Positions 7,531 through 55,750 are shown, numbered from the stretch's first letter. The stretch: DNA of 55,750 nt from Candidatus Jacksonbacteria bacterium RIFCSPLOWO2_02_FULL_44_20 (GCA_001818155.1 MHJU01000009.1:1-55750); one strand, 5' to 3'. Numbers and translations: made by a program. Notes: a model not told the origin generated them from the sequence alone.

Positions 7531-8586
7531 CTAAATCACACTATGTCGATGGCCCTCTTTCGCGCCTGAACCAGTGATCTCAATAAACCGCGCTTTCTTT
7601 TGGAATTCAGAAATGGTTTTTGCGCCAAGATAGCCCATAGATGAGCGCAAACCCCCGGCAAGTATTCGCACATGTTCGGATAACGAGCCACGATATGGAA
7701 TCATTATGGAAACTCCCTCTGGAACGAGTTTTGTAGGGAGAACGTCCGATTGCGCATACCGATCTTTTGAACCTTCCAGCATTGCCTCAAAAGAACCCAT
7801 GCCGCGAAATATTTTGTATTTTTTCCCATCTTTTTCAATGATTTCTCCAGGCGCTTCATCGGTTCCGGCAAGCAAATTTCCGAGCATCACGGATGAGGCG
7901 CCTGCCCCGATCGCTTTTGCAATATCGCCAGAATGTTTGATGCCGCCGTCCGCAATGACAGGAGTATCTTTTTTTGCCAAACGAACTCCTGCCAAAGCTT
8001 CCATGATCGCGGTGATTTGCGGAACGCCGATTCCAGCGACAATTCGTGTTATACAAACAAAGCCTGGCCCCATACCTACCTTTACAGCATCCGCCCCTGC
8101 TCGCGCAAGATCATAGGCTCCATCGCGCGTTGCAATGTTTCCGGCGATCACATCTATCTTATTGAAACAGGGATTCTTTTTAATCCTGCAAACCATCTCA
8201 ACCACTCCTTTGGAATGCCCATGCGCTGTGTCAACAACTAAGAGGTCGGCTCCTGCCTTAACAAGTGTCTGTGCGCGACGAAACTGTTCATCGCCGGTAG
8301 AAATCGCGGCGCCGACAAGAAGTTTTTTTTGTTTTACGGCCATCACCTCTTTTGCCTGCGAGTCCGCGCTCATGTTTTTATGAATTATGCCAATGCCGCC
8401 CAAATTTGCAATGGACGAGGCAAGAGCGCTCTCTGTTACAGTGTCCATAGCGGCAGAGATAATTGGTATTTGCAGACGAATTCTCCTTGTCAGGCGCGTT
8501 GAAATGTCGGTATCTTTGGGCAAAACCGAGGATTTACAAGGAAGGAGAAGAACGTCGTCAAATGAAAAGGCTTTGATTATTTTCAT
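7531..8586 (-). CDS. guaB: IMP dehydrogenase lacking the CBS (Bateman) module
   Basis: [16 protein letters not shown]-like [29 protein letters not shown] catalytic Cys loop, [21 protein letters not shown] joins directly to [10 protein letters not shown] with no CBS pair. Start taken at [11 protein letters not shown]. Confidence 0.93.
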
Positions 8587-8631
8587 AATTATAGTATAAA
8601 ATAGTATAAATGAGGAGATAAAAAAAGTCCA
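8587..8631. promoter_or_regulatory. Short divergent guaB/guaA intergenic promoter region
   Basis: 45 bp between divergent starts; AT-rich direct repeat atagtataaa-atagtataaa. Confidence 0.45.
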
Positions 8632-10455
8632 ATGATGAAAGACTCTATAACTCACAAGCATATCGCGATTCTTGACTTCGGCTCGCAATATACGCATCTT
8701 ATCTCGCGGCGGCTAAGGGATGCGCGGGTATTTTCAAAAATTTATCCCCACGATACGCCGGCAAAAACGCTTGCTTCCGAACGTCCGATCGGAGTCATCC
8801 TTTCAGGAGGTCCAAAGAGCGTGTATGAAGCCGATGCTCCGTCCTACGACGCGAAACTATTTGAACTCGGGATTCCAATCCTTGGCATCTGCTACGGACA
8901 ACAGCTCATTGCGCGCCAGTTTGAAGGGGAGGTGAAACATGGGAAGGTGAGGGAGTACGGATTTGCCAAATTCAAAATTAAAATTGAAAAATCAAAATTA
9001 TTTCACGATATTGCAGATGTTCTTGATGTCTGGATGTCGCATGGAGATATAGTAACAAAATTACCGGCAGGATTTACAGTAACAGGCGCAACAAAAAATT
9101 GTCCGATTGCGGCGATGGCGGATACTCAAAGAAATATATACGGACTCCAGTTTCACCCGGAAGTGCACCACACAAAAGATGACGACAACATATTACGAAA
9201 TTTTGCATTCAAAATCTGCAAAGCAGAAAAAGATTGGCAAATAGGCGACATTATTGGCGATATTCTTACAGAAATTAAAATACATGTCCGAACAAAAAAA
9301 GTGTTCATGCTTGTTTCAGGCGGCGTGGATTCTACTGTGGCATTTGCCCTTCTGCAAAAGGCTCTTGGTGAAAAAAATGTGATAGGAGTGCATATTGACA
9401 GCGGCCTTATGCGTAAAGATGAATCGCAAAAAATTCTCTCTGACCTCAACAATGCAGGGCTTACAAATATCAACCGCGTTGATGCAGAAGATAGATTTTT
9501 AAAACAGCTCAAAAATATCCGTGATCCGGAGGAAAAAAGGGTGATAATAGGTGAGACCTACATGGACGCGGCGGAAGCATGGCTCTCTGAAAATCAAGGC
9601 GACATACTTCAAAGCGAGAAATGGCTTATCGGCCAAGGAACGATCTATCCTGATACGATTGAATCAGGCGGAACGCTAAAGGCTGACAAAATTAAAACGC
9701 ACCATAACCGAGTTCAAAGAATTCTGACAATGATTGAGCGCGGAAAAATTATTGAGCCGCTAAAAAATCTCTACAAAGACGAGGTGCGGGAAATCGGCGC
9801 AAAGCTTGGTCTGCCGAAAAAACTTCTCTCTCGCCATCCGTTCCCGGGGCCCGGCCTTGCGGTGATGATTATGTGTTCGCAAGCGCGCCTGTATATTCCG
9901 AAAATAGCGCTCCCCAAAGACACAACAATACTCCCGATTCAAAGCACAGGAATTCAGGGAGATAACCGTACTTATGCCTACCCGCTTGCGGTGTGGAAAA
10001 CTTGGAATTTTGAACGTATGTCCAGATTTGCAACAGAGTTCACAAATCATCATAAAAAAATTAATCGCGTAGTGCAGGTAGTCTGGGCAAAAAAAAATCA
10101 AGAAGAGAAGACACACCCTAACTTCAGCCACACGCCGGGGCTATTCGTAACTAAAGATCGACTGGAATTACTGCAAAAAATTCACGAGCGCGTTACGAGA
10201 ATCGTCAAAGATGAGCGACTGTACGATAAAATCTGGGAATTCCCGATTATACTTTTGCCGATCGGCCTTACAAAAAACGGGCAATCGGTTGTGCTACGCC
10301 CGATCTCATCAAAAGAGGCAATGACCGTAAACGCCTATTCGTTGCCTCGCGCGACAGTGCAAAGCATAGTTTACGCGATCAGGCAATTTGATGAAATAGA
10401 GGCGATTTTTTATGACGTGACAGACAAACCGCCGGCGACAATTCAGTGGGAATAA
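8632..10455 (+). CDS. guaA: GMP synthase (glutamine-hydrolysing)
   Basis: GATase class I GICYGQQL and LQFHPEVHH; PP-loop SGGVDSTVAF; HPFPGPGLAV; C-term NAYSLPRATVQSIVYAIRQFDEIEAIFYDVTDKPPATIQWE. At 607 aa longer than typical ~510-525 aa bacterial forms. Confidence 0.94.
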   Translation: MMKDSITHKHIAILDFGSQYTHLISRRLRDARVFSKIYPHDTPAKTLASERPIGVILSGGPKSVYEADAPSYDAKLFELGIPILGICYGQQLIARQFEGEVKHGKVREYGFAKFKIKIEKSKLFHDIADVLDVWMSHGDIVTKLPAGFTVTGATKNCPIAAMADTQRNIYGLQFHPEVHHTKDDDNILRNFAFKICKAEKDWQIGDIIGDILTEIKIHVRTKKVFMLVSGGVDSTVAFALLQKALGEKNVIGVHIDSGLMRKDESQKILSDLNNAGLTNINRVDAEDRFLKQLKNIRDPEEKRVIIGETYMDAAEAWLSENQGDILQSEKWLIGQGTIYPDTIESGGTLKADKIKTHHNRVQRILTMIERGKIIEPLKNLYKDEVREIGAKLGLPKKLLSRHPFPGPGLAVMIMCSQARLYIPKIALPKDTTILPIQSTGIQGDNRTYAYPLAVWKTWNFERMSRFATEFTNHHKKINRVVQVVWAKKNQEEKTHPNFSHTPGLFVTKDRLELLQKIHERVTRIVKDERLYDKIWEFPIILLPIGLTKNGQSVVLRPISSKEAMTVNAYSLPRATVQSIVYAIRQFDEIEAIFYDVTDKPPATIQWE

Positions 10456-51881: not shown

Positions 51882-53039
51882 ATGAGCAACTTCATCAGCA
51901 ACAGCGCTAATCAAACACTAAAAAGCCGTCTAAAAACGCTTATCGCAAAAAGCGAAGAGCTTAAATTTTTAGTAGGCTTTTTTTATTTTTCCGGCATTAG
52001 GGAATTGTACGAGAGCCTGAAAGAAAAAGAAAACCTCTCCCTCAAGGTGCTTGTCGGGCTTAATGTGGATAAGGCGATTTGGGGACTTGCAGAGTACAGG
52101 ACTGGAACATATCAAAACGAGGAGGAAGTATTCGCATTCTTTGAGTCAATCAAAAAATCTTTCAATACCGATGATTTTGACACAAAAGAATTTTACGAGC
52201 AGGTTCGTTTTTTCATCAAATTATTGCTGGAAGATCGGCTTATCATACGCAAAACCGAACATCCGAATCACGCCAAGCTCTATATCTTCAAGCTGGAAGA
52301 AGACCAAGTTGGCAGAAACGCGCTTTTTATAACCGGAAGTAGCAACTTAACTAAAGCGGGACTTTCCACGCAAGGAGAATTTAATGTGGAAATAAGCGAT
52401 TACGGCGTGGAAGACGCGAATAATTATTTTGATGAGTTATGGCGCCGCGCGATTATCATCACAGAAAAGCATGCGCTTAAAGAAAAATTGATACGAGTGA
52501 TAGAAGAAGAAACGCATCTTAAACAGCTTACCCCATTTGAAGCATTCGCGCTTGTTTTAAAAACATACCTTGAAGCCGCGCGGAGAAAAGACATCAGCCA
52601 AAGCGCTATAGAGAAAATGAAACAAGCCGGCTATACGCCGTACTCCTACCAAATAGACGCGGTCGGCCAAGCCAAAGCGATTGTGGAAGAATATAACGGC
52701 GTTATTATCGCGGATGTGGTGGGCTTGGGAAAATCAATCATCGCAAGTATGCTGGCGCATGATTTACACTCTCGCGGCGCAATCATCTGCCCGCCGGGGC
52801 TAATCGGCGACAAAAGCAAAACAACGGGCTGGAGAAAATACACTGAAGAATTTGGTTTGTATGAATGGGAAGTTTGGTCAATGGGAGAATTAGACAAAGC
52901 GCAGAAGTGGATTAAAAAAGCCGGCAACCCACCACGCCCTCGCTTGGGGAACGGAAATTTGCGGCGACTAAATTACTGCAAAGACTCACTAAGGATACTT
53001 CGAAAAGTTTCCTCTTCAAGCGCAGGTAGAATTCTATAG
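51882..53039 (+). pseudogene. Truncated PLD-nuclease/SNF2-like helicase; recognisable to ~52925, remainder reads into unrelated DNA
   Basis: N-terminal PLD region HAKLYIFKL...FITGSSNLTKAGL; Walker A ADVVGLGKSIIASMLA and ICPPGLIGDK; no DEAH box or helicase C domain follows; terminal ~35 aa (NPPRPRLGNGNLRRLNYCKD...) look non-native and run antisense to the next gene. Confidence 0.8.
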
Positions 53040-53701
53040 GCACCCACAAAATTTAACCGACGCATCAGCGCACGAACTTTATCCTCTTTGAATTGTTCAA
53101 AATATTTTGGATTATTTGAAATAAAATCAAGCAAAACATGAACAAATGAGTCGGATTTACCAAGAGAGCCGTCTAACTGTCTTGTGTACTCGTAAAGCGC
53201 AAAAAATTCTCGCGTAAGCTCAAAAGGGTCATCCCTTTTTTCATCGTAAGTCATGTGTGCTCCCCACCAAAGTAAAGCGATGCCGTGCCGTAAATACGCC
53301 GTGGTTGTTTGTGTGTTTACAAACCAATGTTGAGCAATGTACCGCGCGCGTTTTTCTTCCGCCTGATCTGTGACTGGCCAGCGTTTTGCCATATAGTCCA
53401 TGAATGGCACATGAGCTAACCATGCCCATAGTCGTTGATCTGATGCCATAGTACGATCTAACCCGCGCAATGCTTCATAAAGAACTCGAGCATTTTCAAA
53501 TGCGGTAAGATTGGCATCAAGTTTTGGTAGTGCCTCAATCTCAATAACAGTGTCTTTAACATCGGAAGCAGAAAAACTTGGGGCTTTGCCTGCAATATAT
53601 CCACGAATTATATCTTCGCTCTGGAGCCGTTGGCCCAGTCTTTGAAGAAATGGTGTAGTAAAAACTTTAATGCGTTCCATAATTTTAGTCTTCTGGCTCA
53701 T
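52973..53701 (-). CDS. Uncharacterised protein resembling DUF6339-type family
   Basis: RLWAWLAHVPFMDYMAKRWP...RYIAQHWFV...AYLRHGIALLWWGAHMTYDEKRDDPFELTREFF; family name from memory. Confidence 0.6.
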   Translation of the reverse strand: MSQKTKIMERIKVFTTPFLQRLGQRLQSEDIIRGYIAGKAPSFSASDVKDTVIEIEALPKLDANLTAFENARVLYEALRGLDRTMASDQRLWAWLAHVPFMDYMAKRWPVTDQAEEKRARYIAQHWFVNTQTTTAYLRHGIALLWWGAHMTYDEKRDDPFELTREFFALYEYTRQLDGSLGKSDSFVHVLLDFISNNPKYFEQFKEDKVRALMRRLNFVGAYRILPALEEETFRSILSESLQ

Positions 53702-54524
53702 CTATTATTTCTTTTAATCCTGACAGCATCCGCTCAACCGGCATTTTTAGTATAGTTTGCACAATGTTAGAGATATTTTCCTTGCTCCATTCAAAATTTG
53801 CCTTTTCAGCGCGTTCTTTCAGAACACTGAACCACATAAATTGCTGATGGTATTCAGTGTCCTCAAAAGCATATTGCATGGCAATAAGAATCGCCGGAAA
53901 GGCAACACCTGATTGAATTATTGAGTTTAATTTTTCTGTTTTTGATCCTGCGAAAATTGCTAGCTTGTCATAATCAATACTGGGCAATCTGACAATGATC
54001 TTATCTTGGTTTGAATCTACGATCATCGGACCAGAAAGGTGCGGATCACGAACTACCTCAAGAAAATCAGAAATGTTTCTTGTCCCAGCATATCTCTTTC
54101 TGGCCTCAAATTTTTCCGACCCACCATCAGCAAGAATGTCGCCTTGAACAAGGTTGACGGTTGCACCTTCGTAATCAGAATGTGCCATACTATTTGCGTA
54201 ATCTGAAATGTCTTTTGTCGCAATAACAAAATATCCTAAGGATACGACACCTCGAAGATCAACTGCTGGAACAGAAACCTCAAATTGGCTATCTGTAAAA
54301 AGATGACATCGGCGAAAGTGCGTAGCAATGCATGTAATTTGCAGTACATACTTTGCCCGCCCGCTATCTATTAAGTCTTGGATTGTCTTATTATCCAAAT
54401 TAAAATTACCACGAATAACGATGGTATCCGGTCCTAAATTGACTTCGACAATCGGTGAATATGTGCCAGAAATTGCATCGCTATCACCGAGCACTGGCCA
54501 AGGATAATGTGAGGTTATGTTCAT
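53685..54524 (-). CDS. Uncharacterised 279-aa protein, second gene of the terminal operon
   Basis: Tight overlaps with both neighbours (17 nt and 4 nt ATGA). Confidence 0.7.
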   Translation of the reverse strand: MNITSHYPWPVLGDSDAISGTYSPIVEVNLGPDTIVIRGNFNLDNKTIQDLIDSGRAKYVLQITCIATHFRRCHLFTDSQFEVSVPAVDLRGVVSLGYFVIATKDISDYANSMAHSDYEGATVNLVQGDILADGGSEKFEARKRYAGTRNISDFLEVVRDPHLSGPMIVDSNQDKIIVRLPSIDYDKLAIFAGSKTEKLNSIIQSGVAFPAILIAMQYAFEDTEYHQQFMWFSVLKERAEKANFEWSKENISNIVQTILKMPVERMLSGLKEIIDEPED

Positions 54525-55750
54525 GGCAAAATTCGCAAATTAGGTTCTAGGGCAACAATCCACGGTTCTTTTAATTGAATAGAGAGATATGCGCTTCCTG
54601 AATCGTCTAGAGAAAAATCACAATGTTCTTGCCCAGGCTTAAATATTTTTGTTCCTCTTTCCCCAACTGCATTGGACATGGGAAGTAGTTCGTCGCTTCC
54701 ATCGTCTGCACGAGCATACAACCTCATTCTAACTACGGGCTTCTCATTTTTATTATCAGTATGAATAATGACACGATATAATCGTCCATCTTTCGTTTTA
54801 TTTCCTACAATATACCGAACTGTTGCATTCTCCAATTCTTGGGATTTAACCGATCTACCCTTTTCATCAGGTTCCGGTAGCGGATTTGGTACATCAAATG
54901 GTCTTGGAGGGGTAGGAGGGCTTGGTGGTGTCGGCGGGTTTTCTGTACGCACTTTTATATATCGTGCGACTCTAATGGGTCGTATTGTATGAACTGAGCT
55001 GACTGTGTCCTCTACATCAGAACCAATCTCAATGCCAGTTTCTTCTTCTACCACCTCTTTTACTTGATTTTTTGCCTCGCCGATATTTGCACTACTTCCT
55101 TCTTTTGTCGGTAAGCCAATATGTTCTGCCAAGCCCGGGATGCTTGTTGATTGCGATACCGGAGCATACAACAAACCCCCAAGCCCACCAGCTATAAAAA
55201 GTTCTAGTTCGTTATAGGCAGTTTTTCCATCCTCGACATGATGTCCGTGTTCGTCTTTCCAATTATGCCAATCCCACTCTGTATGTGCGGGATTTTCCAT
55301 TTTTCGAAGTATCTCACTACCTTCTTTATTTCTGCATTCAAAAATTGCTGCATATTTTGTTAGATGAGATGATCTCCCCTTGAAGCCAATAATCATGCCG
55401 GTATTTCTAACAAGTGCGGTTTTGTTTGGATATGGCAAATCGTCAGAAGTACGACCATAAAAGGAAACTTCTCCAAGCACATCAGGACTTTCAGTCAATT
55501 TTTTCTCGGAGTTGGTGTAAGCATCAAAAAAATGTAGTGGATTATATGGTTTAAAAGATTTTTTTTCATCTAGCGAAAAAAATTCACTCATCCGTTCACG
55601 CAAATTGGTGGCGTTAAACTCCTTATCGCCAACTTTTACAGTAAGAATGCCCCAATGTATTGATGGCCAAAACCAACCCAAAACCGCGCGAGAAATTGTA
55701 TCTTGCCAGTCGTTATTACCTAGAAAATTAACAACCCAAATATCAGTGCC
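54521..55750 (-). CDS. C-terminal part of a larger protein, probable GHKL/HSP90-like ATPase; 5' end beyond the window
   Basis: Reading frame stays open to the window edge: GTDIWVVNFLGNNDWQDTISRAVLGWFWPSIHWG...; the listed start is only a TTG. RNTGMIIGFKGRSS...AIFECRNKEGSEILRKMENPAHTEWDW resembles the C-terminal part of defence-associated GHKL ATPases. Confidence 0.6.
   Translation of the reverse strand, partial: GTDIWVVNFLGNNDWQDTISRAVLGWFWPSIHWGILTVKVGDKEFNATNLRERMSEFFSLDEKKSFKPYNPLHFFDAYTNSEKKLTESPDVLGEVSFYGRTSDDLPYPNKTALVRNTGMIIGFKGRSSHLTKYAAIFECRNKEGSEILRKMENPAHTEWDWHNWKDEHGHHVEDGKTAYNELELFIAGGLGGLLYAPVSQSTSIPGLAEHIGLPTKEGSSANIGEAKNQVKEVVEEETGIEIGSDVEDTVSSVHTIRPIRVARYIKVRTENPPTPPSPPTPPRPFDVPNPLPEPDEKGRSVKSQELENATVRYIVGNKTKDGRLYRVIIHTDNKNEKPVVRMRLYARADDGSDELLPMSNAVGERGTKIFKPGQEHCDFSLDDSGSAYLSIQLKEPWIVALEPNLRILP

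Follow-up and report, generated by a model that had tools for sequence, protein, structure and literature searches.

A contig-end copy of the PDC-M33 phage-defence candidate in a Patescibacteria genome, and a small gene that may accompany its MORC-like ATPase

The window analysed here is the whole of the 55,750-nt contig C9 from Candidatus Jacksonbacteria bacterium RIFCSPLOWO2_02_FULL_44_20, whose genome comprises 1.07 Mb in 41 contigs. Three genes, designated A, B and C, run in from its far end and meet the remnant of a helicase gene on the opposite strand:

51882..52913, plus strand: PLD-SNF2 helicase remnant, first ~346 of ~1100 residues (Pfam PLDc_2 2.1e-8, RE_NgoFVII 5.7e-6)
52973..53701, minus strand: gene C, 242 aa, PDC-M33C / DUF6339 (PADLOC PDLC04586 1.7e-41, Pfam PF19866 8.3e-48)
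53685..54524, minus strand: gene B, 279 aa, PDC-M33B (PADLOC PDLC04583 8.9e-51)
54521..55750, minus strand: gene A, C-terminal 409 residues, PDC-M33A (PADLOC PDLC04582 1.2e-31, profile 228-619 of 627)

The three co-oriented, tightly overlapping ORFs of the original prediction are borne out: A and B share an ATGA (4 nt), and B and C overlap by 17 nt. Its assignment of the third protein to DUF6339 also stands, with a PF19866 score of 162.9 bits against a Pfam gathering cut-off of 23.2. The middle protein had been described as belonging to no recognised family and the set as a poorly described system; B matches PDC-M33B, and PADLOC already lists the set as phage-defence candidate PDC-M33. Because the PADLOC matches to PDC-M33A, B and C occur in order, the set is a catalogued phage-defence candidate, and the window holds a further member of it, incomplete here. 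Compared with the corresponding genes of a Parcubacteria relative (L003, the source of the closest homologue found), which are 60-66% identical at the protein level, substitutions at codon positions 1/2/3 number 97/70/209 in A, 67/49/161 in B and 73/51/132 in C, and no stop codon is present; this third-position bias together with the unbroken frames indicates that all three are real coding genes. Two alternative identities were considered. PDC-M33 profiles account for every PADLOC match of the three proteins except a single weak one of C to Csx1/Csm6, which makes lactococcal AbiR, a system linked to a C5-type restriction system, less likely; GrwAB of V. cholerae is a DUF262/GmrSD-type system and unrelated. 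A literature search found neither PDC-M33 nor DUF6339, and no experiment on any member.

Gene A is open at position 55750, which is the true end of the contig; since contig C9 stops exactly at this base, the window edge is the assembly end. The PDC-M33 set has a complete A gene, and here residues 1-227 of A lie beyond the contig end; a search for them across the 41 contigs of the genome found nothing. The TTG at 55681, listed as the start of A, is not its true start. The incompleteness of A reflects the limit of the assembly and bears on the intactness of this copy, not on its family membership, and it is nearly certain that the segment is what the assembly end has left of a Patescibacteria PDC-M33 cassette, namely its 3′ part.

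The complete A protein of L003 has 636 aa, and A in the window aligns to its residues 228-636 with 66% identity. In an alignment of 22 A-type proteins, an N box (QN..DA), a G1-like box (D..T.G) and a G2 box (G..G.GK) are invariant or nearly so, and a GT motif follows the G2 box; the canonical G1 box is one residue shorter than the D-x-x-T-x-G of these proteins. As this part is missing from the window, the three boxes are assigned to the window gene by homology with L003. What the window gene does carry is the S5-like half, with an invariant R-x3-M and the motif ENPxHxxW (ExxxH), which reads ENPAHTEW here and whose E379 and H383 are invariant in alignment A3. In the account by Iyer, Abhiman and Aravind (2008; PMC2292703), ExxxH near the end of the S5-like region is the mark of paraMORC2. 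Because the motif occupies the place given there, A is filed as a paraMORC2-type GHKL ATPase, and by the published description of motif and neighbourhood it very probably belongs to that family. Profile methods gave no further match: none of 13 A-type members matches a Pfam HATPase family, a PDB profile search with A returned nothing, and hhalign comparison with GyrB and MORC-like proteins was not significant, although the N and G2 boxes were brought into register. When all three boxes were searched for with a regular expression, which was too narrow to be used for counting, the only matches outside genes adjacent to the small gene described below were two A genes. The GHKL (MutL/MORC-like) reading in the original prediction is thus upheld by the N, G1 and G2 boxes found in the relatives' counterpart of the missing half, but not by any significant HATPase or PDB profile match; motifs and context leave it largely supported.

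The alignments of B and C were inspected for conserved catalytic residues and gave none, the invariant residues being structural. B has a conserved start motif, YPxPVL, and its AlphaFold2 model, built from eight sequences (pLDDT 77), has a beta-rich N-terminal half and a helical C-terminal third; fold searches in the PDB gave nothing beyond weak Fn3/Ig-like matches, and viral contigs scanned with B gave no match. C has a conserved aromatic/aliphatic core and no catalytic motif, and its model, likewise from eight sequences (pLDDT 71), is all-helical, with no convincing match among PDB and viral proteins. Both may well be structural or recognition subunits.

In every intact locus long enough to judge, A, B and C are adjacent and co-oriented, in Bacteria, on an archaeal plasmid and on phage contigs. 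Homologues of all three genes were expected to co-occur if the prediction was right, and A-B-C indeed recurs in this order across several phyla and on phage contigs. The cassette is found on plasmids of Lactococcus, Priestia, Arthrobacter, Paenarthrobacter, Ligilactobacillus, Planococcus and Deinococcus. The middle gene is less similar in the Synechococcus and Halomicrobium loci, and in L023 and L024 it is in place without a match to the B profile. Within Patescibacteria, the cassette was detected in 3/380 sampled genomes of the phylum and 5/381 of the class, the Jacksonbacteria genome being counted in both. Serine recombinase genes lie near L003, L012 and L027, which makes mobility of the cassette plausible.

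A C5 methyltransferase adjoins the cassette in 16 loci, often together with Vsr, against a background of two C5 methyltransferase genes in the whole Jacksonbacteria genome; the association of such ATPases with C5 methyltransferases and Vsr-like nucleases named in the original prediction is seen in relatives. Three complete loci from the window's own class (L085-L087) read C5 methyltransferase-Vsr-S-A-B-C on one strand, where S is a small gene. In L. salivarius, N6-type rather than C5 methyltransferases go with the cassette, and a recognised C5 methyltransferase is absent in L004, L018 and L027. Restriction enzymes near the cassette are frequent and of unrelated types (HpaII, HNH, MutH/Sau3AI and AlwI), and the combination of a varied nuclease with a constant cassette suggests an accessory that serves many restriction systems. 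The contig stops before any methyltransferase or nuclease of the system is reached, so the window holds neither; beyond the edge, the GHKL half of A and gene S are expected, and vsr and dcm probably follow.

Gene S encodes a conserved protein of ~75 aa with the core LxGNLSNxxxYxY, directly upstream of A, for example at:

L003:7872-8090, L005:7837-8067, L086:5599-5817 and others: S, upstream of A

When any one of the first 12 members was left out, the profile built from the others recovered it with values of 1e-25 to 1e-31, and the full profile gave no further match in the set of loci searched with it. Searches of Pfam, NCBIfam and PADLOC returned no family for S, and no copy was found in the Jacksonbacteria genome. 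The region upstream of A is available in 20 loci (L085-L088 included), of which 16 have S before A, and in L028 a methyltransferase gene stands between the two. It is absent from L004, L018 and other plasmids of the L018 species, L024 and L029, and is missing from the Lactobacillales and haloarchaeal loci. S is not confined to A-B-C: it also occurs elsewhere (L036, L037, L038, L040, L053-L060), ahead of several GHKL/MORC-like ATPase genes that are unrelated. On alphaproteobacterial plasmids it lies 10-12 nt upstream of GHKL-type genes, three of which have weak HATPase_c_3 matches. Among the 380 sampled Patescibacteria genomes, S is confidently present in 10; two of these loci are PDC-M33, and in seven S seems to share an operon with a different GHKL-like gene, so that a GHKL/MORC-like ATPase gene accompanies S in 9/10, PDC-M33 included. 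The partner in L056 scores above the HATPase_c_3 cut-off of Pfam and has a PDB match to human MORC4, that in L053 falls just under the cut-off, those in L055, L058 and L060 can be recognised as related to A, and those in L057 and L059 have an N-box-like motif only. In L054, S stands beside a type ISP restriction enzyme, and no GHKL gene was seen.

This presence beside several GHKL genes outside A-B-C makes it probable that S generally accompanies MORC-like ATPases. We consider it slightly favoured that the real system is S-A-B-C and that prokaryotic GHKL ATPases of the MORC/paraMORC type have S as their general companion in several otherwise unrelated defence loci, namely PDC-M33, MORC beside dcm and Vsr, and GHKL beside Gabija-like genes, which would imply a shared mechanism of assembly or regulation. 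The recognition of S as a fourth, previously unlisted gene, together with the neighbourhood evidence, is what is new in this work. Two of the plasmid loci are Gabija-like loci with a GHKL subunit:

L036:5022-10213: Agrobacterium plasmid, S and a GHKL-type gene ahead of GajA and a UvrD-type helicase
L038:4983-10210: Dinoroseobacter plasmid, S and a GHKL-type gene, followed by a GajA-like gene

The closest described systems share parts of this arrangement. All three window proteins match PDC-M33 of PADLOC-DB 2.0 in order, with C as DUF6339, but A is incomplete in the window and the S found in relatives matches no PADLOC profile. In mismatch and very-short-patch repair by MutL with MutH or Vsr, an ATP-gated clamp licenses a nuclease of restriction-enzyme fold, with methylation as the mark; the logic proposed below is alike, but A has no MutL homology by profile and the partner proteins differ. 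With paraMORC2 (PMC2292703), the cassette has in common the GHKL motifs (in relatives), the ExxxH motif, a neighbourhood of C5 methyltransferase and Vsr, and a patchy distribution in Gram-positives and cyanobacteria. The restriction-modification neighbourhood is seen in relatives, the window's upstream side being off the contig. In that account, paraMORC2 operons mostly contain SF2 helicases, whereas such a helicase was not seen as a constant neighbour of this cassette, and the sections consulted contain no description of B, C or S. Type I-D Shedu VcSduA is a fusion of a GHKL ATPase with a nuclease that has tested antiphage activity and is proposed to gate the nuclease (PMC12137116); a GHKL ATPase, identified by motif in the case of A, is common to both systems, but VcSduA is a single-gene fusion without B, C, S or a linked C5 methyltransferase.

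Beyond the observed gene identities, order, neighbourhoods and motifs, we infer a mechanism comprising an ATPase activity, a clamp, a use of methylation, a nuclease partnership and an antiphage effect. A would dimerise on ATP like MutL/MORC and close as a clamp on DNA, and S, B and C, as non-catalytic subunits, would build the complex, aim the clamp or read the DNA. The 5-methylcytosine made by the neighbouring methyltransferase would mark self, and a clamp on unmarked or damaged DNA would recruit or license a nearby nuclease, for which Vsr-like, HNH, HpaII, Sau3AI/MutH or AlwI-type enzymes are the candidates. The outcome would be an ATP-dependent restriction. Against this reading stand the Lactobacillales and haloarchaeal loci without S, the N6-type methyltransferases of L. 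salivarius and the lack of a significant profile match placing A among the HATPase families. This clamp mechanism, with methylation as the self mark and a licensed nuclease, is put forward tentatively, as a possibility somewhat short of even; the explanation as a whole, PDC-M33 identity combined with a methylation-guided clamp defence, is the best available and has about an even chance of being right.

The neighbourhoods can be read differently. S-A-B-C might be an autonomous defence, acting by DNA compaction or abortive infection, that merely travels in islands with restriction-modification genes and uses neither methylation nor a neighbouring nuclease. Such independence would suit the changing type of the nuclease, the lack of a recognised C5 methyltransferase in L004, L018 and L027, the presence of the cassette on two filamentous-phage-like contigs (L025, L026) and the pairing of S with a GHKL gene beside GajA and UvrD-type (Gabija-like) genes. 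It accords poorly, however, with the finding that in the closest taxa a C5 methyltransferase and Vsr directly adjoin the cassette in the same orientation, and with the C5 methyltransferase carried by 16 loci, and we regard it as rather unlikely. The same co-occurrence with C5 methyltransferase and Vsr, and the action of MutL-kind GHKL ATPases in repair, would fit a MutL/Vsr-like accessory that mends the T:G mismatches arising from deamination of 5-methylcytosine at the sites of the neighbouring methyltransferase. Repair of this kind appears improbable, given that a C5 methyltransferase-Vsr system on contig C30 of the same genome lacks the cassette, that B and C match no repair family, and that the cassette resides on phage contigs and on mobilizable or conjugative plasmids.

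A further doubt concerns this copy rather than its function, and it arises at the 3′ border. As had been predicted, a broken PLD/SNF2 helicase lies beside the cassette: it is 59% identical to full-length relatives of ~1100 aa up to position 52913 only, the homology ending at residue 346, 60 nt from the stop codon of C, and the ORF continuing to 53039 without homology. Its near relatives include two frames of ~1100 residues in genome G443 (L083, L084). Either the end of this gene has apparently been replaced by the cassette or the contig is chimeric there, and the G+C content of the cassette (0.41, against 0.43 in the rest of the contig) does not decide between gene replacement and chimera. The segment might accordingly be debris, or an assembly chimera joined to the ribosomal-protein contig at ~52.9 kb: the PLD-SNF2 gene breaks off just where the cassette begins, a search of the genome did not find its remainder, the contig ends within A, and the assembly is fragmented into 41 contigs. 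Set against this are the three open frames with their strong third-position bias relative to L003, a G+C close to that of the rest of the contig, and the occurrence of the cassette in other members of the class and phylum, and we judge debris or chimerism improbable. The PLD-SNF2 gene itself was rejected as a member of the system, since it is truncated, is coded on the other strand and was not found next to the cassette in the relatives examined. DISARM, with its DrmA, DrmB and DrmC genes and a DrmD-type helicase, was rejected for the remnant, which has only weak DrmD/DrmC/DrmA-type matches, and the cassette genes match no Drm profile.

Elsewhere in the Jacksonbacteria genome, contig C30 (L016:8659-12389) carries two C5 methyltransferases with a 491-aa frame between them and Vsr, among core genes. 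It is a second system, apparently complete; being separate and flanked by core genes, it was rejected as the missing flank of the cassette.

A proposal of 2008 has MORC-like ATPases of prokaryotes drive restriction-modification through DNA remodelling, and a literature search found no experiments on this branch. A compact cassette with defined partners, in which a methyltransferase and a nuclease recur and a tiny companion is shared with other MORC-like loci, offers a concrete set of proteins to reconstitute, and it could help to explain the action of eukaryotic MORCs on methylated chromatin. Its presence in Patescibacteria indicates that even very small genomes retain the cassette.

Several loci depart from the simple arrangement. 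A-B-C, or B-C, lies on viral contigs resembling filamentous phages (L025:1-3434 and L026:3-1615), the latter of which also carries a gene for a Zot-like ATPase. On an L. salivarius plasmid (L020:3994-8714), A is split and is separated from B by a gene for a group II intron reverse transcriptase, and on a haloarchaeal plasmid two A-like genes (L024:1-1564 and 7956-9848) flank a C5 methyltransferase. On Listeria plasmids, DUF6339 genes that are short or split (L034:7010-7570, L035:5010-5569) occur with neither A nor B and are probably remnants of the cassette.
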